Shown here one piece after another: positions 13,772 through 29,937 of a stretch of DNA of 40,010 nt. Position numbers and translations under genes: made by a program. Position 1 is the first letter of the stretch. Every line of letters starts with the position of its first letter. The stretch comes from an uncultured SAR86 cluster bacterium (GTDB lineage: Bacteria; Pseudomonadota; Gammaproteobacteria; Magnimaribacterales; D2472), in the NCBI GenBank assembly GCA_902627055.1, contig CACOHS010000009.1, positions 1 to 40,010 of the forward strand, in the 5' to 3' direction. The notes below the pieces were generated by a model. It ran no database searches, was not told the origin of the DNA, and saw only the letters and a program-made list of their open reading frames with translations.

Positions 13772-15799
13772 TTAACTAATAAGAGAGATATCTTCTTTAT
13801 TTAATAAATCTCTATCTAAAGCATTTAAAAGGGGTTTTAAATTTTTTGCATAAGGTTTCCAACGACCCATACCGGACTTATTTATAGGCTGTCTTACCTG
13901 CTCAGAACTTGCAGTTCGAACTGATCTATCGGTTTCATAAAATGAAATGCATGCCTCTTCGAATGGCAAATCAAGAAAATCAAGCATTCTCTTGACCTGA
14001 CCCTCAAGATCTTCAATAACGTCCTCATTATTTACTCTTAAAATTTTATCTGGCAGAACTTTATCCCAATGATCCATTAACTTTACATAACTTTTGTAGT
14101 AACTGCCTGCCTCAGCAAGACCGTAAGTAAATTCCTGACCTTGCGCAAATAATTGCTTAAACATACTGAAGCAGCAATCTAACGGATATCTTCTTGCATC
14201 GATGATTTTCGCATTTGGCATGATTAAATGTATTAAACCAATATGTCTAAAGTTATTAGGCATCTTATCAGTGAACATAGGTGCATCTTTTCTGTGCATC
14301 CTAGTTTCATCTATATATTTCTTTCCAAGAGATTTTCTTTGATCTTGAGTTAATGAGGTCATGCTTTTTGGATAATTTCCTAATTTTCCGTAAATGTCAT
14401 CTCCTCTCAAACTTTGAGCAATTGAAAGAATATTTGGAAGTTCTAGAGTTCCATCAATCATTGAGTGAGATGCCAAAATTTGCTCAATGAGTGTAGAGCC
14501 AGCTCTAGGTAAACCTAAAATAAATATAGGCTCCTTGGTTTCATGACCCCCATCTCCAAGCTGATCGAAAAAGGCCGCATCACATATATCTATCTGTGCC
14601 TGAAGTTCTGCATCCATTCTATCTATAGAATATCGACTCTGATCATTTTTTATTTTATTGCCATTTTCAAGATGAAAAAATGCTTCATCAAAATCCCCTA
14701 TGGATTCACAAGCTTGAGCAAGAGCAAAGTGAAAGTAAGCTTTATCCCTCAGGGAAAGATCCACTCTGCTAGCTTGATCCCGCATAGCATTAAGTTCATC
14801 AGTATTGAAGGAATAGGTTTTTAAATTTGCCAGCGAGAAAAATGCCTCACCGTGGTCTGGTTTAATCTTATATGCTGACTGATAACTTTGAATTGCTTGA
14901 TCAGTCTTTCCGAGTGTTTTTTGAGCATGTCCCTTCGATGTATGCGTACTAAAATTGAATGGATTTTTCTCTAATATGTGATTAAATAATTTTATAGCTT
15001 TAGCATGGTCTCCGTTTTGCATAATCTCGCTAGCTTTCTGGGCTTGATAATTCATGTTTTCAGGGAATTGATCGCATAAAATATTTACTTGCTCCATGGT
15101 TTTGGTGAACTTTTGTTTTTTTCTTAAAACCATTGCATATTTCATTCTTAAGTCGCCATCATTTGGGTCAAATTCAACTGCTTTTTCAAGCAAGAATTCA
15201 GCATCATCAAAGTAACCCATCCTGTTTGCTATTTCTGATAAAAGAGACATTGCATAGGTATGAGTGGGATTTTTCTTTAGAAAGGCTCTACATTTTGTTT
15301 CTGCTAAACCCAGCCTTCCTTCATTGAGAATTTGATCAATATAAAGTAAGGATGGTGGAAGCGATTCAAGTTTTTTAATTTGTTGATGGGCATGATCAGC
15401 TGCCGGCTGATTCTTATTTTTAACAAAATATTGATAGAGCAATTTCCATGAAGCTAAAAGAGCTGGATTTAATTCACATGCTTGTCTGTAATTAACAATA
15501 GCTCTCTCCTCATTACCCATATCTCTGTTGATATGGCCTAACTCTTGGTAAGCGCGCCCCATATCTGGAGCATTTAATAACAAACGTTCAATATATTTTT
15601 TTGATTCATCAAATTTTTTTAAATATCTGGATGACACAGATGCAAGATAAAGACTATCAATATTATCAGGATTTTCTTTTAAAATTATTTCAAAAAGATT
15701 GAGTGCGTCCTCAAATCTATTTTCTTTTACAGCTTGTGTTGCCTCACTTAAGTCAACTGACAAGGAAGCGTTATTAGAATTAAAATTATTTTCTTTCAT
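13772..15799 (-). CDS. TPR-repeat sulfotransferase family protein
   Basis: A 675-residue two-part protein. Residues about 15-400 consist of tetratricopeptide repeats (for example HINRDMGNEERAIVNYRQAC and SAYKIKPDHGEAFFSLA). Residues about 420-675 form a sulfotransferase domain with the PAPS 5'-phosphosulfate loop ILGLPRAGSTLIEQ (427-440) and the later DARRYPLDCCFSMFKQLF block that binds the 3'-phosphate. Such fusions are common in marine proteobacteria; the acceptor may be a protein tyrosine, lipid or glycan. No signal peptide is seen. The gene starts 42 bases upstream of a strong terminator that serves the next gene, so it has its own promoter. Confidence 0.92.
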   Translation of the reverse strand: MKENNFNSNNASLSVDLSEATQAVKENRFEDALNLFEIILKENPDNIDSLYLASVSSRYLKKFDESKKYIERLLLNAPDMGRAYQELGHINRDMGNEERAIVNYRQACELNPALLASWKLLYQYFVKNKNQPAADHAHQQIKKLESLPPSLLYIDQILNEGRLGLAETKCRAFLKKNPTHTYAMSLLSEIANRMGYFDDAEFLLEKAVEFDPNDGDLRMKYAMVLRKKQKFTKTMEQVNILCDQFPENMNYQAQKASEIMQNGDHAKAIKLFNHILEKNPFNFSTHTSKGHAQKTLGKTDQAIQSYQSAYKIKPDHGEAFFSLANLKTYSFNTDELNAMRDQASRVDLSLRDKAYFHFALAQACESIGDFDEAFFHLENGNKIKNDQSRYSIDRMDAELQAQIDICDAAFFDQLGDGGHETKEPIFILGLPRAGSTLIEQILASHSMIDGTLELPNILSIAQSLRGDDIYGKLGNYPKSMTSLTQDQRKSLGKKYIDETRMHRKDAPMFTDKMPNNFRHIGLIHLIMPNAKIIDARRYPLDCCFSMFKQLFAQGQEFTYGLAEAGSYYKSYVKLMDHWDKVLPDKILRVNNEDVIEDLEGQVKRMLDFLDLPFEEACISFYETDRSVRTASSEQVRQPINKSGMGRWKPYAKNLKPLLNALDRDLLNKEDISLIS

Positions 15800-15846
15800 T
15801 TAACGAAATTTTAGCAAAAAATGTTACTGATGATTTATAAAACTAA

Positions 15847-15868
15847 AAAGGGAGCAAAAGCTCCCTTT
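15847..15868 (-). terminator. Rho-independent terminator
   Basis: AAAGGGAGC, loop AAAA, GCTCCCTTT forms a 9-base-pair stem. On the minus strand it is followed by a T-rich tail, placing it 18 bases after the stop of the TonB receptor at 15886. Confidence 0.9.
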
Positions 15869-15885
15869 ATAATTCTTAATTTAAC

Positions 15886-18480
15886 TTAATTAAAAAATCG
15901 CTTGAATCTTACACCAACAGTTGTCGGTCTTACAATTCCAACTCTTTGCCTATCGAAAACAAAGGTATTAGCAATTTCAGCTCTCTCATCAGTCACATTA
16001 TCTATGTAAACTTCAGCCAACCATGCATCATTGCTTACACCTGCACGAATATTCATCATACTGTAACTGTCTTGAGGAGCCTTATTTGGTTCCATTACAT
16101 CAGAAACACTGTCATCTGATACAGTTAATTGAGCCTGAAAATGTCCAGTATTGCCTGAGGACATACCCCACTCTTTTCTGGCACTTATATTACCTTGAAA
16201 TCCTGGAGCGAAAGCTAATTCAGATCCAACTTTGACGTCATCAGTCGGCACCAATTTCTTAGTAATCTCTGTATCAAGGAATGAGAAAGCACCTGAGAGT
16301 ATCCAACCATCCATGTCAGGATAGTAGATGAAGTCACCTTCAAGACCTGTGATTTCTGCATCAGCAGCATTATCTGAGAAGAACAAGTTAACAATACTTG
16401 GATCAAAAACAGTAGTTTGGAGACCGGTTACATCAACCATAAATACACTACCATTGAATCTAAGCCTTCCGTCTGCGAGTAAGGTCTTCCAACCAAACTC
16501 TAGATTTACAACTTCATCAGAATCAACAGCTGGTTTTACAGTGTAGCTTCCGTCTGCGGTTGATCTACCAACTGGCCTATTGAGTAATCCAGGTCTGAAA
16601 CCTTCTGACCAAGTTACATAATACATTATGTCCTCAGATGGATTCCATGAGTAGGTTACCTTGCCAATAACGCCATCTGTTTGCGCTTTATCAGGATATC
16701 CATTTGCGTTATTTGGAGCATATTGCGTTGATAGATTTGATCCAAATCTTTGCTGGTCTGTATTTCCGAAACCATTTCCAAATGAGGAGTTAGCACTACC
16801 CTCAAAATCAACCTCAATATCGTACCATCTGGCACCAACAGTAAGTTCTGATGTCTCAGAGGTATCAATAGATAACTCTCCAAATACACCCTGTTGCTTA
16901 TCAGTTCTTCTAATATCGTTAAAGAATATTACTGGCTCACTATACGGGCCTGCAGAGAACCATCCTGCACCACCGTTATTAATTGCACCCGTAGACGAGA
17001 TATCTGTTAATGCATAGTTAGGCGCGTAATTAATATCATTGCCAACAGAACCTGGATATGTAAACAAGTTTAACTCTGTCAATTCAAGGTCGCTAAAAAA
17101 TACTCCTGCGGTAAGACTAACTGTGTCACTTATAGGAGCATTTACACGAAATTCGTGAGTCATTACTTCTGTGTTTGTTGTTGAATCAACTAACAAATTT
17201 GGAGCTCCACATGTGCCAGTCGGAACATTCCCTGGAGCAAAAGAAGTATAAGTTACGTAATAATCACAAATGTAATATGGAAGATATTGACCAACGAATA
17301 AATAATCTGTGTAGTCAACATCTTGATCAGATGTTCTATCTGTATATGCTCCAGCATATACTACTTCGAGATCACCGATGGAACCATTTAAAGTTAGACT
17401 CATATTGTCATACTCATCTTCGATCTGATCATTGGTATATCTTTGTATTTCTAAATCACCTAATGTTGGATCTACAAAGAAAACTCCATCAGCATCAATG
17501 GTTTGAGTAGCTAAAGTTAAATTAGCATCCCAATTATCATTTATTTCATGAGCAATACTTGCTCTGAAGCCTTCATATGTTACAGAGTTGGCATCCTCTT
17601 TAACGATTGCGTCTGCTTGCTTGAATGTAACACCTGAAAGATCAGCGCCAGCCTGAAAACCAGCTCTTGATGCAGCCACAGGTAAACCATTTTGTCTTAC
17701 CGTGCCACCTGGTCTAAAACGAGCAGAACCGCTTGCATCAAGTTTTCCAGCAATCTGATCTATGTATCCACCTCTTCTGTCTCTGTATGCTACAAATCTT
17801 AAAGCCGTCTCTTCATTCATAGGCACATTAGTTACAAATTCAACTTTCGAGCCCATATCACCTTCAGGCATAAATCTTGATTCTACTTCTAAGCTGCTTG
17901 ATGACTCACCAATTACTGGCTTGTTAGTTATCATTCTTACCACACCAGCTTGGGAACTGGCTCCAAATAAAGTACCTTGAGGACCAGAAAGAACCTCTAC
18001 ACGTGAAATATCGGCAGCATAAACATCCAAATTCCTACCTGGTTGAGCTAGAGGCTGTTCATCTAAATAAAATGAGACATTTGGAGTTAAACCTGCAACA
18101 CCTGCTACAGTTAAATTTGGAGTTGTAGAAGCTAGACCCCTAATATAAATAGTACTTTGACCAGGCCCTGACCCACCAGCTGTTACACCAGGCAATTGCA
18201 TTAAATAATCTTCAAATACATTGATGCCTTTTTGTTCAAGTGATTCCTCTGTAAGAGCATTCACTGATAGTGGAACATCTTGAAGACCTTCAGCTTTTTT
18301 TCGAGAAGTAACTACAACCTCTTCAATAGTTGCTTGTGTCTGGGCAGAAATATATCCACTGTATGCAGAAGCATTGATTATGGCTAATGTTGATATAGCA
18401 GAAAGAATCTTCCCACCAAAATTATCGAAAACCTTACTCTTAAAGGTTTTATCAGTTATTTTTTTAATAAGTTTTGTCAT
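15886..18480 (-). CDS. TonB-dependent outer-membrane receptor
   Basis: An 864-residue receptor from the ATG at 18480; a longer TTG start at 18501 is less likely because GGGGGGA just before the ATG is a good ribosome site. The signal region is long (about 50 residues, ending ISAQ), then the TonB box EEVVVTSRK, plug motifs (IYIRGLAS, VEVLSGPQGTLFGASSQAGVVRMITNKP) and a barrel ending RFKRFFN with a terminal Asn after two Phe. The FGxSSxAGVVRMIT phrase is typical of the large marine/sphingomonad subclass importing hydrophobic organic compounds. It is divergent from the BCCT-flavoprotein operon, which suggests a related substrate, but that is inference. Confidence 0.93.
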   Translation of the reverse strand: MTKLIKKITDKTFKSKVFDNFGGKILSAISTLAIINASAYSGYISAQTQATIEEVVVTSRKKAEGLQDVPLSVNALTEESLEQKGINVFEDYLMQLPGVTAGGSGPGQSTIYIRGLASTTPNLTVAGVAGLTPNVSFYLDEQPLAQPGRNLDVYAADISRVEVLSGPQGTLFGASSQAGVVRMITNKPVIGESSSSLEVESRFMPEGDMGSKVEFVTNVPMNEETALRFVAYRDRRGGYIDQIAGKLDASGSARFRPGGTVRQNGLPVAASRAGFQAGADLSGVTFKQADAIVKEDANSVTYEGFRASIAHEINDNWDANLTLATQTIDADGVFFVDPTLGDLEIQRYTNDQIEDEYDNMSLTLNGSIGDLEVVYAGAYTDRTSDQDVDYTDYLFVGQYLPYYICDYYVTYTSFAPGNVPTGTCGAPNLLVDSTTNTEVMTHEFRVNAPISDTVSLTAGVFFSDLELTELNLFTYPGSVGNDINYAPNYALTDISSTGAINNGGAGWFSAGPYSEPVIFFNDIRRTDKQQGVFGELSIDTSETSELTVGARWYDIEVDFEGSANSSFGNGFGNTDQQRFGSNLSTQYAPNNANGYPDKAQTDGVIGKVTYSWNPSEDIMYYVTWSEGFRPGLLNRPVGRSTADGSYTVKPAVDSDEVVNLEFGWKTLLADGRLRFNGSVFMVDVTGLQTTVFDPSIVNLFFSDNAADAEITGLEGDFIYYPDMDGWILSGAFSFLDTEITKKLVPTDDVKVGSELAFAPGFQGNISARKEWGMSSGNTGHFQAQLTVSDDSVSDVMEPNKAPQDSYSMMNIRAGVSNDAWLAEVYIDNVTDERAEIANTFVFDRQRVGIVRPTTVGVRFKRFFN

Positions 18481-18501
18481 GATTCCCCCCAACAGGATCA
18501 A

Positions 18502-18638: not shown

Positions 18639-20123
18639 ATGTTTAAAAATATTGCTCCAAGACGATTCGTTTTCTCAATTATTCTAATTGCTGGATTTAT
18701 TGGCCTAACATTATATAACTTAAGTGAGGCTGATAAATTGTTTGCTGATATCCAAAAACAAATCTCTGACGGTCTTGGATGGCTGATCATTTTACTAGCA
18801 AATGGTTTTCTAGTATTCGTAATATATTTAGCCTTAAGTAAACATAAAAAAATTAAACTTGGAGGGCCAGATGCTCAACCAGAATTTTCAAATGTCAATT
18901 GGATAGCAATGCTATTTAGTGCAGGATTGGGTGTGGGCTTATTATTTTATGGAGTAGCTGAGCCTGTATTGCATTTTAGCTCTGATGCACTCCATGAAAC
19001 TAAAGCATCATTTTCAGATAAAGCAAACCTATCCATGAATCTTGCCTATCTTCATTGGGGATTTCACGGCTGGGCTATCTATGGAATTGTTGGCTTATGT
19101 TTCGCCTACTTTACTTATAATAAGAATCTACCTTTTCGCGTAAGCTCTTTTTTCTCAGGTCCGTTTACGCAAAATATTTGGGGACGAGTCTCCTTGGATG
19201 TAATTGCAATCATCGCAACCATATTTGGTATCGCAACCTCTCTTGGGTTGGGAGCAAATCAAATTAACTCAGGCCTTGGTTACATGGAAATTCTTGAAGA
19301 AAGCTTCATGAGCACAATTGGAATTGTTGTTGTAATAACTCTCATGGGGTTAATCAGTGTTGTGTTAGGTTTAAAAGTTGGCATTAAACGATTATCACAA
19401 CTAAATATAATTTTGTGTGCAATCTTGCTATCGATAATATTTTTTGGTGGTCCAACAAGTTACATATTAGATGGATTAGTTCAAAACTTAGGTTCATACC
19501 TTCAGAATCTCTTGAGCCTATCAACTAACACTAATGGTTATTTAGATTCCTCATGGCAAAATGGCTGGACTCTTTATTACTATTCATGGTGGTTTGCATG
19601 GTCACCATTTGTAGGATTGTTTATTGCCAGAATTTCTTATGGTAGATCAATTCAAGAATTTTTAATTGGTGCAGTTTTGGTTCCATCTTCAATTGTTTTC
19701 CTATGGATGGGTGTTTTTGGTAACGCTGCTCTGTATCAAGAGTTTATAGATCCAAATTCGCTCAGTACAGCAATTAATAATGATATTGCTGTATCACTAT
19801 TTGTGTTCCTAGAAAACTTTCCTTTATCACAATTGCTTATGGGACTTGCAATTGTGATTATATTAACGTTTTTTGTTACTTCTTCTGATTCAGGCGCATT
19901 AGTAACTTCTATGTTAACGGCAGCTAAGAAAGAAAATACCAAAGATGAGCCTCCAATGATCTTAAGAGTAATCTGGGCTATATCTCTTGGGGTGATTGCT
20001 ATTGTGCTATTAGCTGGAGGTGGTATTGGAGCTCTACAAACATCAGTTATAGTTACCGGCGTCCCCTTCGCAATACTGGTAACTTTCGCTGCAAGAAGTC
20101 TTCTTAAAAACTTAAATCAATAA
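18639..20123 (+). CDS. BCCT family transporter
   Basis: A 494-residue transporter with about twelve hydrophobic segments. It carries the BCCT glycine-rich helix SAGLGVGLLFYGVAEP and the tryptophan-rich signature around WWFAWSPFVGLFIARISYGRS. The family imports quaternary-ammonium and related compounds (betaine, choline, carnitine, DMSP) with sodium or protons. Here the GLGVG replaces the GMGIG of sodium-dependent BetP. As first gene of the five-gene operon it probably brings in the compound that the flavoprotein, DUF1214-like protein and SDR process, or a side-chain-bearing form of it. Its C-terminus is short, so osmosensing is unlikely. Confidence 0.93.
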   Translation: MFKNIAPRRFVFSIILIAGFIGLTLYNLSEADKLFADIQKQISDGLGWLIILLANGFLVFVIYLALSKHKKIKLGGPDAQPEFSNVNWIAMLFSAGLGVGLLFYGVAEPVLHFSSDALHETKASFSDKANLSMNLAYLHWGFHGWAIYGIVGLCFAYFTYNKNLPFRVSSFFSGPFTQNIWGRVSLDVIAIIATIFGIATSLGLGANQINSGLGYMEILEESFMSTIGIVVVITLMGLISVVLGLKVGIKRLSQLNIILCAILLSIIFFGGPTSYILDGLVQNLGSYLQNLLSLSTNTNGYLDSSWQNGWTLYYYSWWFAWSPFVGLFIARISYGRSIQEFLIGAVLVPSSIVFLWMGVFGNAALYQEFIDPNSLSTAINNDIAVSLFVFLENFPLSQLLMGLAIVIILTFFVTSSDSGALVTSMLTAAKKENTKDEPPMILRVIWAISLGVIAIVLLAGGGIGALQTSVIVTGVPFAILVTFAARSLLKNLNQ

Positions 20124-20128
20124 AGCTT

Positions 20129-20527
20129 ATGAATTCTAAATCAGAAGAGAATAAAAAAATTGCGGTGAAATTTTTTGATTTATTAAGTTCTGGATCTGAG
20201 GAATACCTGGATTTTTATTGTGATGACTCAATTATCTGGACAGCTGGAGAAAACGCAATTGGTGGCAAAAGAAGCAAAAAAGAAATTGTGGAGTTTGCTC
20301 AAGGAATTCTAGCTGCATTTCCAAACGGAATTGCATTTAATATAACTGGTATTACTGCTGAAGATGAGAGAGTTGCTGTTGAAGTAAGCGGTGAGGCAAT
20401 TCATGCCTCAGGACAAGCATATAACAATAAATATCATTTCTTACTGATCATAAGAGATGGAAAAATTATGGAACTAAAGGAATACATGGATACTCAATTA
20501 GCAGCAAAAATTCTTTTGGGTGAGTAA
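20129..20527 (+). CDS. NTF2-like/SnoaL-like protein
   Basis: A 132-residue cytoplasmic NTF2-fold protein with the usual opening (KIAVKFFDLLSSGSEEYLDFYCDD) and a central IIWTAGENAIGGKRSKKEIVEF. It starts five bases after the BCCT gene and ends three bases before the flavoprotein gene. Relatives include ketosteroid isomerase and SnoaL-type cyclases, so an isomerisation step on a ring ketone would fit beside a KstD-like flavoenzyme. The catalytic residues of ketosteroid isomerase cannot be confirmed by eye. Confidence 0.82.
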   Translation: MNSKSEENKKIAVKFFDLLSSGSEEYLDFYCDDSIIWTAGENAIGGKRSKKEIVEFAQGILAAFPNGIAFNITGITAEDERVAVEVSGEAIHASGQAYNNKYHFLLIIRDGKIMELKEYMDTQLAAKILLGE

Positions 20528-20530
20528 TTA

Positions 20531-22039
20531 ATGCAATCAAATAATGAAATTTCACCTGCAAAAGAAAGTGATATCTCTGAGTTCAATTACGAGGTTGATG
20601 TAATAATTTGTGGTTTCGGTGGTGCCGGAGGCTGTGCAGCGCTGGAATCTATCAGGAATGGTGCATCAACCCTTCTTTTAGAGAGAGCCTCAGATGGAGG
20701 TGGGTCTACTGCTTTATCAAGTTGCGAAATGTATTTAGGAGGATCTGGAGGTACATCATTACAGAAAGCATGTGGTTTTGAAGATTCGACTGAGAACATG
20801 ATCAGCTACATAGAAAAATCACTAGAGGGTAAAGGCGATTCAAAAAAAATTAAACTTTACGCAGAAAATGCTGCTGATCACTTTGAATGGGTAAAATCTT
20901 TAGGAGTCACTTATAAAGAATCTGCTCACTTGGGAAGAATTGTTGTTCCTGAATCAAATGAGTCACTATTATTTACCGGTAATGAAAGAGTAAGTCCTTT
21001 TTGTGAAGTTGCTGAGCCAATTCCACGAGGTCACGTTCCATCCCACGAGGGTGATTTTGGCGGGAAAATTTTTTTTGAAGCTTTAAAAAATGAAATAAAT
21101 TCAACAGATATTGAAATAAGCTTTGATTCAAGAGCTAAGAGTTTAATTATTAACAATGATAATCAAATTGTTGGAGTTCAGTTCAAGAAAGATAATGTTA
21201 TACAAAACGCAAGAGCAAAAAATGGAGTGATTCTTACTGCTGGAGGCTTTGTGATGAATCAAGAAATGATAAACAACTATTTACCATTCCAAACTAGTTT
21301 TGCTGCACCATATGGAAATCCATGGGACAAAGGTGACGGCATTCAAATGGGATTATCGATGAATGCAAATGTTATCAATATGGATGAAGCTTTTTTTGGA
21401 GTATATTTTTATCCACCCGAATCTCTAACCAATGGAATATTTGTTAACAACAGAGGTCAAAGATTTGTTAACGAGGATTCCTATGGAGCAAGAATAGGTT
21501 ATTTTTGCTCGAAGCAAGAGGATCAAAAAATCTACATGATTATACAAAATGAGGATTTTAATCCATCTATCTACATGAATAAGCTGCCAATTTTAGCAGT
21601 CGCTGAAACCATCGAGGAGCTTGAAAAGGAAGCTGGTTTTCCTGAGGGCAGCATCTCATCAACTGTTAGTACCTATAATTCATATGCTAAAAATGGTGAA
21701 GATTTGGACTATAAAAAAAACTCAAAATGGTTAAAGGAAATCACTAATCCTCCATTTGCAATTATTGACTATAGTTTTGAAAATCAAGCTAGCCCAGCCT
21801 ACAGCGACAAAAATGGTCCATTAATGTTTACCTTAGGCGGATTAGAAACTTTGCCAACAGGTGAAGTTTTAAATGTTAATGGAGAGCTCATTCCAAATTT
21901 ATATGCAGCGGGACGAACAACTGCAGGACTCCCAAGAACCGGAAAAGGATATGCTAGTGGTATGTCAGTTGGAGATGCTACATTCTTTGGAAGAATGGCA
22001 GGTATTTCAGCTGCAAAAAATACTAATTATGAAAAATAA
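20531..22039 (+). CDS. FAD-dependent oxidoreductase, KstD/fumarate-reductase type
   Basis: A 502-residue flavoprotein of the FAD_binding_2 family. The dinucleotide motif GFGGAGG (28-34) is followed by Glu51 that holds the ribose. The centre has the family GQRFVNEDSYG, and the C-terminus shows LYAAGRTTAGLPRTGKGYASGMSVGDATFFGR, which is the FAD-binding end of 3-ketosteroid-delta1-dehydrogenases and soluble fumarate reductases. Both are possible; the chain is shorter than flavocytochrome c and has no heme motif, favouring a dehydrogenase acting on a ring ketone or an enoate. It sits in the middle of the BCCT-NTF2-DUF1214-SDR operon. Confidence 0.9.
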   Translation: MQSNNEISPAKESDISEFNYEVDVIICGFGGAGGCAALESIRNGASTLLLERASDGGGSTALSSCEMYLGGSGGTSLQKACGFEDSTENMISYIEKSLEGKGDSKKIKLYAENAADHFEWVKSLGVTYKESAHLGRIVVPESNESLLFTGNERVSPFCEVAEPIPRGHVPSHEGDFGGKIFFEALKNEINSTDIEISFDSRAKSLIINNDNQIVGVQFKKDNVIQNARAKNGVILTAGGFVMNQEMINNYLPFQTSFAAPYGNPWDKGDGIQMGLSMNANVINMDEAFFGVYFYPPESLTNGIFVNNRGQRFVNEDSYGARIGYFCSKQEDQKIYMIIQNEDFNPSIYMNKLPILAVAETIEELEKEAGFPEGSISSTVSTYNSYAKNGEDLDYKKNSKWLKEITNPPFAIIDYSFENQASPAYSDKNGPLMFTLGGLETLPTGEVLNVNGELIPNLYAAGRTTAGLPRTGKGYASGMSVGDATFFGRMAGISAAKNTNYEK

Positions 22040-22051
22040 AGGTTTTTTTAA

Positions 22052-23293
22052 GTGAATGAAATTAATAATCCAATAAACAGCCAGATACAAATTGATCACG
22101 AATTCGAGGCTCTTGAAATTTTTAATCTCAGCGAGATAAAAAAACAAAAGGAGGAAGTTCGCTCATTTTGGCTTGATCTGGTAAAACCATCAGAGGTTAT
22201 GCTCAGTTGTTTTGAAGATGCCTTTGAAGAGGTAATGTTTGGTGCTGTTATCTGGGCACTCAATCAAGATCCAAATTATCCAAAAGTTGTAACGATCAGT
22301 AGAGTGCCTCATAAAATTAATAATCAAGAAATTCCTGGTTCTCGTTGGGGAATAGACAATCCTGACTCAGTTTACAGGGTTATTCCAATTGGAGACTCTC
22401 AGTCCTATGTGATCAGAGGAAAATTAGGAAAACAATTGTTTAATGAAAATCATTTCACTCTGTGGGATGAAGATATGAAAACCATTGGTCTAATCTCTGG
22501 CAATGATATAGAAATTGACAGTGAAAATAATTTTGAAATTTTTGTAAATCCAAGAAATAAGAAAAGGGAGAAAAATCACATTCAAACATCTTCTGGTGCA
22601 AAAGAATTTTACATAAGAGACACAATGATTAATTGGATTGAAGATAGGCCTAACATACTCGATATTGAAATCATTGAATCTACAAAATCTGGTAAAAAAT
22701 TAGATACTAAAAAGAAATTAGAAATTGTAAAAGCTTACATGCAAAAATGGGCTGCAAATACTACAAGATGGAATCAACAGGCCCTTTCAAAACCAGTGAA
22801 TGAGTTTAGTTTTAAGATTGACAGAGACACCGATGGCGCTCTTCGAAACCAAGTGTATCTTCTTGGTCATTTTGCATTACCCTCTTCCGATCACTGTATT
22901 AAGTTAGACATTCATTTAGATGGTGCAAAATATTTTATTGCGCCCATTACAAATATATGGGGGACGACAAATAATATTGTGACAAAAAATGGAAGCCTTA
23001 ATAACTCTCAAGCGAAAGTCAATCAAGATGGAACCTATACATTTATTTTAAGTGTAAATGATCCAGGAGTTTTTAATTGGCTTGATCCATCTGGTCTATC
23101 GGAGGGTATTTTGACTTTACGATGGTCAGGCTTTCCTAATGAAGTAGTTGGAGAAAATTTGTTTGCAAAATCTAAAGTAATGCTGATCAATGAAGCCTTA
23201 AATGAAATAACTGATGATCATAGAATTTCAAGTGAAGAGCGTTTAAATCAATTGCATGCAAGAGAAGAAAGTTACAGATGGAGAACTGAGTAG
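22052..23293 (+). CDS. DUF1214-like conserved protein
   Basis: A 413-residue protein starting with GTG at 22052. It contains phrases seen in DUF1214-type proteins: RWGIDNPDSVYRV, a middle KEFYIRDTMINWIEDRPN, and DPGVFNWLDPSGLSEG near the end. The family is mainly beta, occurs in bacteria that degrade lipids and steroids, and has no known catalytic activity. It begins 12 bases after the flavoprotein stop and is followed ten bases later by an SDR, so it is part of the operon. It may be a substrate-handling partner of the flavoprotein or SDR. No signal peptide is seen. Confidence 0.7.
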   Translation: MNEINNPINSQIQIDHEFEALEIFNLSEIKKQKEEVRSFWLDLVKPSEVMLSCFEDAFEEVMFGAVIWALNQDPNYPKVVTISRVPHKINNQEIPGSRWGIDNPDSVYRVIPIGDSQSYVIRGKLGKQLFNENHFTLWDEDMKTIGLISGNDIEIDSENNFEIFVNPRNKKREKNHIQTSSGAKEFYIRDTMINWIEDRPNILDIEIIESTKSGKKLDTKKKLEIVKAYMQKWAANTTRWNQQALSKPVNEFSFKIDRDTDGALRNQVYLLGHFALPSSDHCIKLDIHLDGAKYFIAPITNIWGTTNNIVTKNGSLNNSQAKVNQDGTYTFILSVNDPGVFNWLDPSGLSEGILTLRWSGFPNEVVGENLFAKSKVMLINEALNEITDDHRISSEERLNQLHAREESYRWRTE

Positions 23294-23303
23294 TTTATAG
23301 ATC

Positions 23304-24164
23304 ATGAATGAGATGAAAAAGACTCCATACATTTGGCTAATATCTGGATGTTCCTCAGGATTTGGAAGAGAAATTGCAATGCAAGCATTGTCCGCAGGAG
23401 ATTTTGTGGGAGTTTCTTCAAGAAACATTAGAGATGTAGAGGATATCTGCAAAGAATATCCAGAAACTGCATTGCCAATAAAATTAGATGTCACAAACAA
23501 AGATGAAATAAAGGAATCAATTCAAACAGTTAATAAAGTTTATGGGGGGTTAGATGTTTTAGTAAATAATGCTGGATACGGTTATCTTGCTGCCATTGAA
23601 GAGGGTGAAAATGAAGAAGTAAGAAAACTTTTTGAAACTAATTTTTTTGGAGCTTTAGAGCTAACTAAAGCTGCCCTCCCAGGAATGAGGGCGCAAAGAT
23701 TTGGCAGAATAATTAATAATTCTTCACAAGCAGGTATCATGGCAAATCCGGGAACAGGTTATTACAGTTCGTCAAAATATGCTCTTGAGGGTCTTATGGA
23801 AGCTTTGGATAAAGAACTGAGGCCTCTAAATATCTCAGTCACATCTGTTCAACCAGGTGCATTTAGAACTGATTGGTCCGGCAGATCGATGAAAAGGAGT
23901 AATGTTGAAATAGAGGACTATAGCAAGCATGTCAAAGAAAGAATTAACATGATTGGAAATATTGATGGAAAGCAGCCTGGAGATCCTGTCAGGGCTGCTA
24001 AAATAATTTTTGAGCTCTCAAGAAATCCAAATCCACCTGATAAACTTTTGCTCGGTGCTGGAGTGCTTACAACATATAAAGAAAAACTAAGTGCTTTATT
24101 AAATCAAATCGATGAATTTGAGCAAACTACTCTTAGTGCAGATTTCCCACAAGACAATTCTTAA
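23304..24164 (+). CDS. SDR family oxidoreductase
   Basis: A 286-residue short-chain dehydrogenase. The cofactor loop is SGCSSGFG (14-21), the NNAG motif is at 88-91 and the catalytic set is Ser141-Tyr154-Lys158. The SSR(N) at the end of beta-2 suggests NADP binding. It belongs to the branch that often shows broad retinol, steroid or acetoin-like activity (VNNAGYGYLAAIEE). Last gene of the operon; its product most likely reduces or oxidises a hydroxyl/keto group on the same compound. Confidence 0.92.
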   Translation: MNEMKKTPYIWLISGCSSGFGREIAMQALSAGDFVGVSSRNIRDVEDICKEYPETALPIKLDVTNKDEIKESIQTVNKVYGGLDVLVNNAGYGYLAAIEEGENEEVRKLFETNFFGALELTKAALPGMRAQRFGRIINNSSQAGIMANPGTGYYSSSKYALEGLMEALDKELRPLNISVTSVQPGAFRTDWSGRSMKRSNVEIEDYSKHVKERINMIGNIDGKQPGDPVRAAKIIFELSRNPNPPDKLLLGAGVLTTYKEKLSALLNQIDEFEQTTLSADFPQDNS

Positions 24165-24238: not shown

Positions 24239-26470
24239 TTAGAAAGTTAGCTTAAATGATAGGCTGTAATTTCTTCCAGGATTGAGAAAATAATCAAGCT
24301 CAGGAGCTGTTTCACTGGTTCCGGCAACGCTGGTCCAATCCCAGTATTTTTCATCAGTCAAATTTTTTATGCCTAGCCTAAGAGATAAATTTTCATTGAT
24401 CTCATAGCCGAGATAGGTTTCAAGTAAAACATGACCTGAAAGCTCTAAGGCTTTAACACATCCGCTTCTTCCGCATGAGGGGGCCAAGCCTTGAGGCCCT
24501 TCATCAGTTGCTTTTATGTATGAGTCTAAAGTCAATTTACCAGATGGGGATGACCACAATAAACCTACTATGGCTTGATCTGGATCAATGGTAGTCAGCT
24601 TTGCACTTTTTTGCTTGCCGCTTGAGGAATTAACTCCAAATGTGGCTGCAAGATTTTCATTAATATCAAAGCTTGATTGAAACTCTACCCCTTTAATATT
24701 TACGCTCTCTAAATTTTGAAATTCAAACCTCAATAATCCAGTTGGGGTAAATCCAGTTGATGCACTTTCGATAAAATCTTTGTAGTCATTATCGTATACA
24801 GCAACAGACCAAGAGCCATTCTCAGTAGTTCCTCTTACACCAAATTCATGACCCTCACTCTCCTCAGGACCTAAATCAGAATTAGGGACGATAGTGTAAA
24901 AAAAAGCAAAGTTAGTAAAACTTAAGTTTGAATTATAAAAATCTGGACTTCTAAAGCCCTCAGCATATTGATAAAAGACAGATAAACTGTCAGCAAGATC
25001 TCTTATAAAACCAAATTTTAATGAAGTTTTGCTATCATCTTGTTCAACTAATGAGTATCCAAATGGATTCACATTTTTGAATAATTGATCGACGCTAATA
25101 TTTAACTTATAGGTATCATGCCTAGCGCCCAAAACAATGGCAGTTTTGTCAGAAATATCAATTCTGTTATTGATAAAAAATGCTGTTCTTTCGGTTTCAG
25201 TGTCTGGAAAAGTTTTGTTGGGGTAAAGCTCTCCGCCAATATTTGAGTTAACTGTATTGGTCATTAAATTTGTTTCGGTTCTATATCTCGGGCGACTGAC
25301 ATCAATGCTTTCTTGTTCAGCTCCATAAACAATGTTGTGAACTGCACCAGATTCAGATTCAATTGATTTAAAAAATTGAACTGCAAAACCATCTATGGAT
25401 TGATCAAAAATGTAATCTTTGAATTCCCGAATAGGAGTTGGAGGAATATTTGGCACAAATTGAGGTCCTCTTGGGCCATTAACAAAATTCCCAACAATGC
25501 TCTTATCAATGTTTGTAACTTGTCTTTGATCAGTGTCTTGTGAATATATTGAAAAACTTCCATTATCAAACAAACCAGAATCAGCAGAAAAATCCAAAGA
25601 CAATGAAACTCTGTCTCTGCTAATATCATCATCTCCTATTGAGGATGTTGTGCTTACCATCTGCGGATAACCTGAAGTTCCTAGCGTTGAATTTAGATTC
25701 CAGTCACCTTCAGATTCTTGAGTATCGTATGTAAGGGTTAGTCCAAGATTATCATTAATTAAATATTTGCCTTTTAAAAAGATGCTTGATTGCTCGCCAG
25801 AAAACGGATTTGGTTTTTTAACAGCATCATCATGAAGTTCAGTTTCGCTAACTTCTCTTGCAGTAACCTGAATCAAACCTTCCATTTTTTCTCCAACACT
25901 TGCAGCTAAGTAAGAAACTTTGCTATGTTCATTGTCACTGTCATATCCTGTTGTAACAGATTGATAGATGTCATTTTCACTGGCAAGGTCACTAGGATCT
26001 TTTGTAATATATAAAATTGCCCCCGCGAGACCATCGGATCCATATAGAGCAGAGCTCGGCCCTTTTAATATCTCAACTCTTTTCAGCAATTCAGTATCAA
26101 CTAGGTCTCTACCATAACCGTCATATGTTTCTCCAAATCTTACGCCATCGATTAGAAGATTTACTCTTTTTCCACCCATGCCTCTGATTGATACAGTGTT
26201 ATTAAAAGTTCTGCCAGAATAAACATCTCTGGTAACAGACACACCGACGGTATTATCAAGTAAGTCTCTCAGGTCGCTGACCTGGCGTGATTCTATCTCC
26301 TGAAGAGAGATAGAGCTTACCGAACCAATAACCTCAGATAATGCAACAGGATATTTAGCAGAAATTACTACAGTCTCTTCTATTGCCTCATCCTGAGCAA
26401 ATAATGTACCCTCATAAAAAAATATAATTAATGAAAATAAAATAGTGTTTTTTAAGTTAAAATTAGTCAT
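24239..26470 (-). CDS. TonB-dependent heme/iron receptor
   Basis: A 743-residue receptor with signal peptide (to about residue 25, ending FAQ), TonB box ETVVISAKYP, plug signatures (SIRGMGGKRVNLLIDG, VEILKGPSSALYGSDGLAGAI) and a terminal Phe (FKLTF). The barrel has FRSP followed by PNSDLGPEES, matching the FRAP/NPNL boxes of heme receptors such as HemR and HmuR. The short stretch between the boxes has no His, although HemR-type receptors have a heme-coordinating His there. Divergent to hmuTUV across two Fur boxes, it is almost certainly the outer-membrane gate for heme or a heme-like iron source. GAGGAC precedes the ATG. Confidence 0.9.
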   Translation of the reverse strand: MTNFNLKNTILFSLIIFFYEGTLFAQDEAIEETVVISAKYPVALSEVIGSVSSISLQEIESRQVSDLRDLLDNTVGVSVTRDVYSGRTFNNTVSIRGMGGKRVNLLIDGVRFGETYDGYGRDLVDTELLKRVEILKGPSSALYGSDGLAGAILYITKDPSDLASENDIYQSVTTGYDSDNEHSKVSYLAASVGEKMEGLIQVTAREVSETELHDDAVKKPNPFSGEQSSIFLKGKYLINDNLGLTLTYDTQESEGDWNLNSTLGTSGYPQMVSTTSSIGDDDISRDRVSLSLDFSADSGLFDNGSFSIYSQDTDQRQVTNIDKSIVGNFVNGPRGPQFVPNIPPTPIREFKDYIFDQSIDGFAVQFFKSIESESGAVHNIVYGAEQESIDVSRPRYRTETNLMTNTVNSNIGGELYPNKTFPDTETERTAFFINNRIDISDKTAIVLGARHDTYKLNISVDQLFKNVNPFGYSLVEQDDSKTSLKFGFIRDLADSLSVFYQYAEGFRSPDFYNSNLSFTNFAFFYTIVPNSDLGPEESEGHEFGVRGTTENGSWSVAVYDNDYKDFIESASTGFTPTGLLRFEFQNLESVNIKGVEFQSSFDINENLAATFGVNSSSGKQKSAKLTTIDPDQAIVGLLWSSPSGKLTLDSYIKATDEGPQGLAPSCGRSGCVKALELSGHVLLETYLGYEINENLSLRLGIKNLTDEKYWDWTSVAGTSETAPELDYFLNPGRNYSLSFKLTF

Positions 26471-26481
26471 AAGTCCTCAAC

Positions 26482-26496
26482 TGAGAATGATTCTCA
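26482..26496. promoter_or_regulatory. Fur box 1
   Basis: TGAGAATGATTCTCA is a perfect 7-1-7 palindrome and differs from the Fur consensus 7-1-7 (TGATAATNATTATCA) at two symmetric positions. It covers the predicted transcription start of the TonB heme receptor. Confidence 0.85.
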
Positions 26497-26502
26497 TTTA
26501 TA
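26497..26502 (-). promoter_or_regulatory. -10-like box (TATAAA) of the heme receptor
   Basis: TATAAA on the minus strand lies exactly between the two Fur boxes, so Fur bound to either would block RNA polymerase. The predicted leader of about 18 bases contains the GAGGAC ribosome site. Confidence 0.45.
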
Positions 26503-26504
26503 AT

Positions 26505-26519
26505 TGAGAATGATTATCA
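26505..26519. promoter_or_regulatory. Fur box 2
   Basis: TGAGAATGATTATCA matches the 7-1-7 Fur consensus at all but one position. Its centre is 23 bases from that of box 1, and it abuts the -35 region of the hmuT promoter. Both divergent transcripts should be repressed when iron is plentiful. Confidence 0.88.
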
Positions 26520-26541
26520 TTTACTTTTGAAAAAAAAGCAA

Positions 26542-26547
26542 TAGAAT
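26542..26547 (+). promoter_or_regulatory. -10 box (TAGAAT) of hmuTUV, leaderless
   Basis: TAGAAT is followed by six bases (CGCTGT) and the ATG at 26554. A TTTACT 16 bases upstream (26520-26525) may be the -35. The start of transcription would coincide with the start codon. Confidence 0.5.
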
Positions 26548-26553
26548 CGCTGT

Positions 26554-27393
26554 ATGAAGAACCTCTTAGTAATATTTTTATGCTTTGTTATAGCTTCAAA
26601 CGCATGTGAAAAAGCAATTGATCCGACACGCATTACTTCTGCTGGAGGATCTATTACTGAAATTATTTATTTTTTAAACTTTCAAAAAAACCTTGTTGCT
26701 GTCGACGTAACATCTAATTACCCTTCTGAAGCAAAAGACCTTCCGTCTATTGGGTATGTTAGACAACTCTCTGCTGAAGGCGTGCTTTCTCTGGATCCAA
26801 CCATCATTATTGGTGAGGATGATATGGGGCCACCCTCTGTAATGGAGCAGATTAAAAGAACAAATGTGGAAATTAAAATTATTCCTGAGAATCATACAGT
26901 TGAAGGTATTTTAGAAAAAGTAAGATGTGTATCTAAAATCATAGGAGCTGATTCTGATGAACTAATTGATACATACCTAAATCCTAAAATTAAGAAATTA
27001 GAACAGCAAACCGATTTAGAAGATAAGAAAAAAATTATTTATATCCTTGGCATGCAAAGTGGGTCGCCTTTAATAGCTGGGAAAAATACATCTGGAAACG
27101 GATTAATAAATATTTCTGGTGGCATAAACCCACTTGCCTCATTTGATGGTTGGAAGCCAGTTGGAACTGAATCAATAATTGAGGCAGCTCCAGATTTAAT
27201 TATTATCTCAGAAAGAGGTTTAAGAGGTTTTGGAACCTTAGAAGACTTAAGAAATCATCCTGCTCTTTACCTTACACCTGCTGCAAAGAATAACAAAATT
27301 ATATCTATTGACGGCATGGCGTCTCTTGGTTTCGGCCCAAGAACTATTGACTCTGCAATTAAAATCTCAGAAATATTTAATGGAATCAATTAG
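26554..27393 (+). CDS. hmuT: Heme ABC transporter substrate-binding protein
   Basis: A 279-residue periplasmic binding protein (BtuF/HmuT class III). A signal peptide is seen in the first 16-17 residues (IASNAC; a Cys follows the cleavage site, but the lipobox is poor). RITSAGGSITEIIYFL and YVRQLSAEGVLSLDP are HmuT hallmarks; the Tyr in this second phrase (Tyr68) matches the position of the heme-ligand Tyr of HmuT. It would collect heme in the periplasm and hand it to HmuU. First gene of a Fur-controlled operon, and its 3' end overlaps hmuU by 14 bases. Confidence 0.9.
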   Translation: MKNLLVIFLCFVIASNACEKAIDPTRITSAGGSITEIIYFLNFQKNLVAVDVTSNYPSEAKDLPSIGYVRQLSAEGVLSLDPTIIIGEDDMGPPSVMEQIKRTNVEIKIIPENHTVEGILEKVRCVSKIIGADSDELIDTYLNPKIKKLEQQTDLEDKKKIIYILGMQSGSPLIAGKNTSGNGLINISGGINPLASFDGWKPVGTESIIEAAPDLIIISERGLRGFGTLEDLRNHPALYLTPAAKNNKIISIDGMASLGFGPRTIDSAIKISEIFNGIN

Positions 27394-28429
27394 AAAACTA
27401 TCTTTTCAAACGTCTCAATTTTTAAGTTTTGTAAGTAAAAATCAAATTCTTTTAATGTCATTGTTATTTGTGTCGATGATATTTTTTTCTCTTTTGGCAA
27501 TCACATTTGGTAGTTATGGTTTGTCAATTGTAGATTTCTTACTGGGTAAAACATCTGATATACAAAACACTGTTTTAACTGAAATAAGACTTCCAAGAGT
27601 AATTCTTTCAGGCTTAGCTGGTGCAAGTCTTGGTATTTCTGGAGCCGCTCTTCAGGGTCTATTTAGAAATCCTTTGGCTGATCCGGGTTTAATTGGAGTG
27701 TCCGCAGGTGCCGCACTTGGTGCTACTTTGATGATAGTCCTAGGCGGAGATATATTTTCTCAATATTCTTTAGGTGTTTTTTTTATTCCATTAGCAGCTA
27801 TAGCAGGTTCATCACTGGTGATTTTGATGTTGTATTTTATGACTAAAGGATTCGGCTATGAAGGAGTGACTTATATGCTGCTGGTTGGAATTGCTATAAA
27901 TGCAATTGCTGGAGTGGGGATTGGAATACTTACATACATCAGCTCTGATTCTGAATTGAGAAGTCTTACATTCTGGACAATGGGAAGTTTTGGAGGTGTT
28001 ACCTGGCCATTATTAATACCGGTAATATTAATTATTGCTTTAGCAATTATAATAATGATCCCCTACTCAAGGCAGTTAGATCTTCTTCAATTGGGCGAAC
28101 CAGAGGCTTTCAGACTGGGCGTAGACGTTCAAAAATTAAAATATACTATCATCTTAACTTGTGCAGCATCGGTTGGGGCTAGCGTTGCTCTGTCCGGAAT
28201 GATTGGTTTTGTAGGATTGATTGTCCCTCACCTTACTAGATTGTTGGGCGGCGTAAATCATAATTATGTTCTTCCTGGGTCAGCCTTAATGGGAGCAGCC
28301 CTGATGATAATAGCTGATTTAATAGCCAGGATAATAATCCAGCCGGCTGAATTACCCATTGGTCTTATTACCAGTGCAATAGGATCACCCTTTTTTCTTT
28401 GGTTAATTTTTAAAATTAAAAAACTATGA
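27380..28429 (+). CDS. hmuU: Heme ABC transporter permease
   Basis: A 349-residue FecCD-type permease with about ten membrane segments, started at the ATG at 27380 inside the end of hmuT; a TTG at 27308 would add a non-membrane leader and is rejected. LPRVILSGLAGASLGISGAALQG and NPLADPGLIGVSAGAALG are strong signatures of the iron/heme/B12 permease family. It forms a dimer in the inner membrane with HmuV on the cytoplasmic face. It ends in an ATGA overlap with hmuV. Confidence 0.92.
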   Translation: MESIRKLSFQTSQFLSFVSKNQILLMSLLFVSMIFFSLLAITFGSYGLSIVDFLLGKTSDIQNTVLTEIRLPRVILSGLAGASLGISGAALQGLFRNPLADPGLIGVSAGAALGATLMIVLGGDIFSQYSLGVFFIPLAAIAGSSLVILMLYFMTKGFGYEGVTYMLLVGIAINAIAGVGIGILTYISSDSELRSLTFWTMGSFGGVTWPLLIPVILIIALAIIIMIPYSRQLDLLQLGEPEAFRLGVDVQKLKYTIILTCAASVGASVALSGMIGFVGLIVPHLTRLLGGVNHNYVLPGSALMGAALMIIADLIARIIIQPAELPIGLITSAIGSPFFLWLIFKIKKL

Positions 28430-29199
28430 CAATCTCTGCGAAATCAATTTCACTTGAGCTTGGTGGCAAGAAAATTCTTGATAATATTTCTATGGATGTT
28501 CGTCCAGGGGAGATATTATCAATTATTGGTCCAAATGGAGCTGGTAAAACTTCCCTCTTGAATGTGTTATCAGGAAATATTAAATCTCATAATGGGAATG
28601 TGAGCTATAACAACACACCCTTAGAAAGCATTTCTATTCAAGAAAGAGCTTACATAAGATCTGTAATGTCTCAATTCCAATCAATCGCTTTTGATTATTC
28701 AGTAGAAGATATTCTACAAATGGGTTGGCTAGATCACAGCCACAAAGATATTAAAGAAGATTTAAGTGCATTTCAAAATCGAGTGATCAAAGAATGTGAT
28801 ATGGAAAATCTTATTCATCAAAAATTCAATACGCTTTCTGGAGGTGAGCAACGCAGAGTACACTTTGCAAGAACGCTTCTTCAGCTTTGGCAACCCGCCA
28901 ACACAAAAGATCAAAACTATCTCTTGCTAGATGAACCCTTTTCTAATCTTGACTTAGTACATAAAGTTAAAATGATGGAGTCAATTAAGGCAAAAGCTTC
29001 ATCTGGAACGGGAATTTTAATGATATTACATGACTTAAATCTTGCTTATTCATTCTCTAACAAAATTCTGCTGTTAAAAAATGGAAGAGTTATTGAGCAA
29101 GGAGAAACAAAAAAAATGTTATCTGCTAGGCTATTAGCCAGAGCATATGAAACCTTTATTAGCATTGATGAAAATCCCATTAATATCAGGTATTACTAA
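28426..29199 (+). CDS. hmuV: Heme ABC transporter ATP-binding protein
   Basis: A 257-residue ABC ATPase. Walker A is GPNGAGKT (35-42), the signature LSGGEQ (137-142), Walker B LLLDEP (166-171) with SNLD following, and an H-loop in ILHDLN. The position after a FecCD permease identifies it as the HmuV energy subunit. Its start overlaps the hmuU stop by four bases (ATGA), a standard coupling arrangement. Confidence 0.93.
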   Translation: MTISAKSISLELGGKKILDNISMDVRPGEILSIIGPNGAGKTSLLNVLSGNIKSHNGNVSYNNTPLESISIQERAYIRSVMSQFQSIAFDYSVEDILQMGWLDHSHKDIKEDLSAFQNRVIKECDMENLIHQKFNTLSGGEQRRVHFARTLLQLWQPANTKDQNYLLLDEPFSNLDLVHKVKMMESIKAKASSGTGILMILHDLNLAYSFSNKILLLKNGRVIEQGETKKMLSARLLARAYETFISIDENPINIRYY

Positions 29200-29202
29200 A
29201 TT

Positions 29203-29937
29203 ATGAATACAAAACTAAAAGCTTATGAATTAAGTGCGACATATTTATTAAGGACTACGACATCTGGAATTTTGTCAACCATATCAAAGGCTTACAAAGG
29301 ATATCCATTCGGAAGTTACGTTACCTACATCACTGGGCCAGACAGATCGATATACATTTATGCAAGCACATTGGCTCAACATACAAAAAATTTATTCAAA
29401 GATTCAAAAGCATGCTTAACTCTTTCAAGAGAAAAAATAAATGATGATAAGCAAAATTCGCAAAGATTAACTTTAATGGGAGATTTAGAACCAGTAAACG
29501 AAACCGATAAAGAATATATTAAAAACAGATTTCATACCTTTCTCCCTGAAAGTAAAAAATATTCCAAAATGCATGACTTTGATTTTTATAAACTCTCGCT
29601 CCTTAAAATAAGATGGATTGGAGGCTTTGGCGAAATAGCCTGGCTAAAAAATAAACATTGGAAAGCAGCAAGTCCTAAATGGCTATCCAATGAGAAGCAT
29701 ATGATTGATCACATGAATGAAGATCATGCTAATGTCATCTACTCTTCACTCAAAGCTCAGCATGGAAAAGCAGATAATAAAGCTAAAATGGTTGCACTAT
29801 GTATTGATGGCTATTTTATTGAATCTAATAATGAAATCTTTTACATAAATTTTGATGACATTTGTTTAAATGCTAAAAGTTATAGAGATATGTTAATTCA
29901 TCAAGCCAAGCAGTATAGAAAATTTGAAGAAAAGTAA
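29203..29937 (+). CDS. hugZ: HugZ/HutZ-family heme-degrading protein
   Basis: A 244-residue protein with an N-terminal pyridoxamine-phosphate-oxidase-like split barrel (residues about 10-150) and a C-terminal DUF2470 domain starting at HMNEDHANV (170-178). In HugZ/HutZ this layout binds heme, and members cleave it to release iron. His170 and His175 are candidate heme ligands in that block. It begins three bases after hmuV and is clearly part of the operon, so imported heme can be opened in the cytoplasm. Enzyme activity is inferred from the family. Confidence 0.88.
   Translation: MNTKLKAYELSATYLLRTTTSGILSTISKAYKGYPFGSYVTYITGPDRSIYIYASTLAQHTKNLFKDSKACLTLSREKINDDKQNSQRLTLMGDLEPVNETDKEYIKNRFHTFLPESKKYSKMHDFDFYKLSLLKIRWIGGFGEIAWLKNKHWKAASPKWLSNEKHMIDHMNEDHANVIYSSLKAQHGKADNKAKMVALCIDGYFIESNNEIFYINFDDICLNAKSYRDMLIHQAKQYRKFEEK

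Follow-up and report, generated by a model that had tools for sequence, protein, structure and literature searches.

A BCCT-NTF2-flavoprotein-DUF1214-SDR gene run in a SAR86 genome: a probable strain-level composite downstream of a conserved importer

Gene content of the locus

The window (the whole stretch of 40,010 nucleotides that was analyzed) is contig C9 of a 1.33-Mb SAR86 assembly which is 88.7% complete. It contains a run of five intact ORFs, all on the plus strand (18639-24164). The intergenic gaps are 5, 3, 12 and 10 bases, which agrees with the range of 3-12 bases given in an earlier note on this DNA, and the run itself is present as that note described it. The first gene codes for a BCCT carrier (18639..20123, 494 aa; PF02028, 534.8 bits, E 2e-160), which is probably an importer of the DMSP/betaine type. 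It is followed by genes for a SnoaL_2/NTF2-fold protein (20129..20527, 132 aa; SnoaL_2, 36.6 bits, cut-off 27), an FAD protein related to 3-ketosteroid-delta4(5alpha)-dehydrogenase (20531..22039, 502 aa; FAD_binding_2, E 1.5e-38), a divergent DUF1214-like protein with a 6ans-type fold (22052..23293, 413 aa, GTG start) and an SDR of the PRK06180 subfamily (23304..24164, 286 aa; Pfam SDR, E 2.7e-48). Divergent from the BCCT gene is that of a large TonB-dependent outer-membrane receptor (15886..18501, minus strand; Plug domain, 64.7 bits), also seen earlier. A context gene on the same strand as the receptor codes for a TPR-repeat and Sulfotransfer_3 protein (13772..15799; Pfam Sulfotransfer_3, 157.9 bits, plus TPRs).

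A terminator scan of the run gave no convincing internal terminator, and a promoter scan gave fewer promoter-like sites than in shuffled sequences. The short gaps suggest a single transcript, so that selection may now act on the whole run, which speaks against regarding it as a composite (see below).

The locus was compared across 107 genomes of the SAR86 family, which we take to be D2472; most of these genomes are incomplete, so that the absences and counts given below are approximate.

The importer unit

BCCT homologues occur in 63 of the 107 genomes (17 in genus g1, one in g6, and 45 in g5, g7, g8 and g9). The TonB receptor is syntenic with BCCT in genera g1, g6, g8 and g9, and is divergent from it in all three loci read outside g1 (L116, L117 and L121). 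Searches for DUF1214-like, KSTD-type and KshA_C proteins gave matches in 28, 35 and 34 genomes, respectively, exclusively from g1, g6 and g10; none were found in g5, g7, g8 and g9, where 45 genomes keep BCCT. As the divergent arrangement is present in genera that lack these ring families, the receptor-BCCT pair is independent of them. The receptor was read in 19 loci of relatives, and in 17 of these its gene adjoins that for the TPR/Sulfotransfer_3 protein; one of the two exceptions is cut at its edge. In most g1 members that carry the NTF2-fold gene, it comes after BCCT. Among the profiles tested, only SnoaL_2/SnoaL accept the NTF2-fold protein. Membership in the ketosteroid isomerase-related family (TIGR02096) was considered and rejected (21.1 bits, cut-off 97.1).

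The best solved relative of the BCCT carrier is the trimethylamine transporter TmaT (8zw8, 413.6 bits). The carrier shares the fold family and the conserved aromatic segments with TmaT, BetP and DddT, the segments W-G-x-H-x-W and W-W-x-x-W-S-P-F-V-G being kept in the alignment. Unlike these, it is paired with a divergent TonB receptor and remains below the cut-off of the NCBIfam glycine betaine equivalog NF047988 (493.2 bits, cut-off 650), and this low score weighs against the betaine-type importer in the composite set out below. The alignment has a Gly in the window BCCT where the choline carrier 9vbp has an Asp; we take it that in BetP a Gly-to-Asp change at the same place lets choline be transported.

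In six genomes of the same genus (G019, G025, G027, G033, G034 and G036), one syntenic island comes after BCCT-NTF2. Its members, identified from representative loci, are a DAO+FAO_M+GCV_T protein (dimethylglycine-dehydrogenase-like), a GcvT-like protein, a DMSP demethylase (DmdA; 410.5 bits, at the cut-off of 410), an MTHFR-like protein, HPP and a GBBH-like dioxygenase, the latter being the next gene in some of the six loci. The window's genome has the same island on other contigs (C18 and C29). In ten g7-g9 genomes, about 6-10 kb separate BCCT from a DmdA/GcvT homologue. Because the neighbors of BCCT-NTF2 in relatives are genes for DMSP and dimethylglycine metabolism, we predict that the BCCT carrier imports a small zwitterion, with DMSP or a betaine as the likeliest cargo. 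This makes the receptor-BCCT pair a candidate system by which SAR86 could actively take up DMSP or betaine across its outer membrane.

The earlier note had thought of a substrate with a ring and a quaternary-amine or zwitterionic head. This is unsupported, given that the receptor-BCCT pair is kept where the ring families are lacking and that BCCT-NTF2 stands beside DMSP/dimethylglycine genes in relatives.

The flavoprotein

The flavoprotein matches 3-ketosteroid-delta4(5alpha)-dehydrogenase from R. jostii RHA1 (PDB 4at0) over its full length (E 1.3e-94, 320.8 bits), compared to 104, 123 and 119 bits for delta1-KSTD, fumarate reductase and urocanate reductase, respectively. It passes the PRK07121.1-3 subfamily (624 bits, cut-off 481). 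In the tree it falls into one clade with 4at0 (support 95/98), apart from the delta1-KSTDs and from the fumarate and urocanate reductases. The residues Tyr319, Tyr466 and Ser468 of 4at0 (numbered as chain index minus 20) are, as we assume, active-site residues of that enzyme. Their equivalents are kept in the flavoprotein, in the segments EDSYGAR and GKGYASG, and are absent from KstD and from fumarate/urocanate reductases. It differs from 4at0 by insertions, among them about 12 residues that precede the FTLGG segment. The most likely reaction of the flavoprotein is the desaturation of a 3-keto ring between C4 and C5.

Assignment as a urocanate or fumarate reductase was considered and rejected: those reductases pair separately (support 99/98), and their active-site residues differ from those of the flavoprotein. 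The earlier designation as a KstD/fumarate-reductase-type protein can therefore be narrowed. Its KstD part is borne out, with delta4(5alpha)-KSTD as the nearest type, while the grouping with fumarate and urocanate reductases, which the note itself had named as a result that would count against its proposal, is not seen in the tree.

The DUF1214-like/SDR pair

The DUF1214-like protein reaches 15.4 bits with Pfam DUF1214 (PF06742), which is below the cut-off of 25. Its AlphaFold2 model was computed from a 12-sequence alignment (pLDDT 75.5) and has the fold that is common to the DUF1214/DUF1254 proteins 6ans, VPA0735 and VPA0106. The Foldseek match is strong for 6ans (E 4.5e-23), at only 17% sequence identity, and weaker for VPA0735 and VPA0106 (about 1e-7). 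Judged by the predicted structure, the label "DUF1214-like" is right by fold, although the protein lies outside the Pfam profile. It is the most open part of the run, as had been stated before. A literature search on DUF1214 returned nothing useful. The SDR exceeds the cut-off for PRK06180 (NF004824; 344.7 bits, cut-off 298) and carries the YxxxK segment (YSSSK). Its most likely role is to convert a ring hydroxyl into a ketone or back.

The pairing of the two genes is fixed in the SAR86 and Halieaceae loci. In the latter (Haliea/Halioglobus, L013-L015), a KstD-type gene is nearby on the other strand, and a sulfotransferase gene comes next in L013 and L015. Contig C2 of the window's genome carries a distant DUF1214-like paralogue beside genes for a sulfotransferase, an SDR, an amidohydrolase and a KshA_C Rieske protein, and also has a KstD-SDR-SnoaL_4-SnoaL_2 cluster. 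A paralogue of this kind lies at most 6 kb from a KshA_C gene in 23 of 28 SAR86 genomes. Plasmid-borne DUF1214-like homologues are encoded next to SDR and sulfotransferase genes in Croceicoccus (a sphingomonad) and Tsukamurella, and next to a Rieske gene in Prescottella. DUF1214-like genes are thus accompanied by SDR genes and often by sulfotransferase genes, with KshA/KstD genes nearby in SAR86 and Halieaceae. This company points the family towards steroid or polycyclic metabolism.

Conservation of the run across relatives

All five genes occur together in one of the 107 genomes, which is the window's own. The flavoprotein is found in five genomes; its gene comes after NTF2 in the window, G037 and G039, and is at other sites in G047 and G048. 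G039 has BCCT-NTF2-flavoprotein with the divergent receptor and is devoid of the DUF1214-like/SDR pair. Close homologues of the DUF1214-like protein are encoded in nine genomes, including the window's (70-89% identical along the gene, or incomplete where the contig ends). In G028, G029, G035 and G038, the same slot holds BCCT-NTF2-DUF1214-like and no flavoprotein gene, and their BCCT is 92-97% identical to that of the window. The SDR gene is next in G029 and G035, while the other two loci stop at the contig edge. In a nucleotide alignment in blocks, these four genomes match BCCT and NTF2 and then resume at the DUF1214-like gene, skipping the flavoprotein. In the two g6-type loci that were read at length, DUF1214-like homologues come after a tesB thioesterase gene.

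In the trees, the window flavoprotein is sister to that of G039 (support 100/99), and the window NTF2 groups with those of the four relatives that lack the flavoprotein (support 81/91). A history shared with the flavoprotein-linked NTF2s, which had also been considered, is unsupported. The flavoprotein gene may have been either gained or lost at this slot. It should be noted that NTF2 is linked to both BCCT and the flavoprotein, which softens a split of the run into units.

Relatives thus carry the genes apart: the flavoprotein is restricted to 5 of 107 genomes, the DUF1214-like gene occurs without it, and its homologues are also found in a tesB context. The earlier note had named separate occurrence in relatives as the finding that would speak against its single system, and for the run as a whole this is what we see. 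Rather than one conserved system, the run consists of parts with separate histories.

The junction between the flavoprotein and DUF1214-like genes is found only in the window's assembly, as would be expected for an assembly chimera. We consider this highly improbable, since frames are open and intact on both sides of the 12-base gap, the NTF2-flavoprotein side is also present in G037 and G039, and inspection of the junction revealed nothing abnormal.

The run as a probable composite

From the synteny and gene order, from which genomes have or lack each gene, and from the clade and active-site residues of the flavoprotein, we regard the run as probably a strain-level composite, in which separately inherited units lie head to tail in a variable slot 3' of a conserved importer. 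The first unit would comprise the TonB receptor and the divergent BCCT gene and, in the window's genus, the NTF2-fold gene. Its predicted substrate is a small zwitterion, e.g. DMSP or glycine betaine, which it would carry through both membranes, while the corresponding enzymes (DmdA-like, dimethylglycine-dehydrogenase-like and MTHFR-like) would be those encoded elsewhere in the window's genome. The flavoprotein would be the second unit, with a predicted C4-C5 desaturation of a 3-keto ring like that by 3-ketosteroid-delta4(5alpha)-dehydrogenase. The third unit would be the DUF1214-like/SDR pair, as one of the clade's sets of genes for steroid or polycyclic metabolism; the SDR would act on a ring hydroxyl or ketone, and the DUF1214-like protein would have some role in the same metabolism.

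The earlier note had proposed a catabolic system because the enzymes are those expected for ring-ketone or steroid oxidation. This resemblance holds, but joining the enzyme set to the BCCT substrate is probably wrong. In a true single system, the receptor and BCCT would bring in a ring compound bearing a zwitterionic or quaternary-amine group, whose ring would be oxidized by the products of the other four genes. The tight gaps on one strand fit such a system, as does the joint occurrence of BCCT-NTF2-flavoprotein with the divergent receptor in G039. We nevertheless consider it unlikely: the full set is confined to a single genome, G039 lacks the DUF1214-like/SDR pair and four relatives lack the flavoprotein, 45 genomes keep BCCT without a match to any ring family, and the BCCT of relatives adjoins DMSP/betaine genes. 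There is, likewise, only a slim chance that the composite now works as a unit, with a naturally occurring zwitterionic ring compound being imported by the TonB receptor and BCCT and its ring being oxidized by the delta4-KSTD-type enzyme, the DUF1214-like protein and the SDR. If this were true, it would be the first catabolic role for the DUF1214-like family.

Similar sets without BCCT exist. On Novosphingobium pNL2, SDR-DUF1214-SDR is near NTF2-FAD-SDR-NTF2-sulfotransferase, so that the four enzyme genes could belong together functionally, which speaks against a composite. Together with the two C2 clusters of similar gene kinds in the window's own genome, this raises the question if NTF2, flavoprotein, DUF1214-like and SDR are a genuine set for steroids or polycyclic compounds that came to lie behind a BCCT promoter with which it has no connection. 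This has a small chance of being correct, because in relatives NTF2 goes with BCCT without the other three genes, and the DUF1214-like/SDR pair occurs without the flavoprotein.

Regarded as a composite, the run illustrates that what looks like an operon in a streamlined marine genome may have a mosaic origin. Caution is advised when a substrate is deduced from adjacency to a BCCT gene.

Relation to published SAR86 metabolism

Steroid-ring catabolism in SAR86 (Suzuki family/D2472) has already been published (PMC11582366, PMC4810484). The five-gene run is not mentioned in the relevant passages of these papers, nor does the term "BCCT" occur in the 2024 paper. What these papers describe are KstD, KshA and related genes in the same lineage. 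GTDB family D2472 has been named "Suzuki", and DmdA had already been noted in it (PMC11582366).

In the window, BCCT and NTF2 genes are separated by a gap of only 5 bases, whereas relatives that lack the flavoprotein have a spacer here (L055:8590-8890, L057:12262-12565, L122:800-1100 and L123:910-1210). This spacer contains a sigma-54-like site (TGGCAC-N5-TTGCT), the conserved sequence GTAATTATGGAGTCA and a 34-aa ORF, which begins with MFEYVNNLIKFCNN in L055.

The variable slot downstream of BCCT-NTF2 is occupied in relative G032 (L105:7896-11210) by a ketoacyl-synthase-like gene and folate-related genes (THF dehydrogenase/cyclohydrolase and GTP cyclohydrolase I). In G039 (L048:10436-14753), a relative with BCCT, NTF2, flavoprotein and divergent receptor, BCCT and the TonB receptor are each split into two reading frames. 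At one further locus, the DUF1214-like C-terminus is repeated (81 residues) between the DUF1214-like gene and the SDR (L011:9259-9501).

Downstream of the run, a heme/hemoglobin-type TonB receptor (TIGR01786, above cut-off) is followed by transport-type genes (24239-29937). This block is found in L057 and is absent at the corresponding place in L055.

A protein combining TPRs and a sulfotransferase domain adjoins a TonB receptor in most SAR86 loci read (13772-18501 in the window). A second such pair is present in each of two BCCT loci outside genus g1 (L116 and L121).
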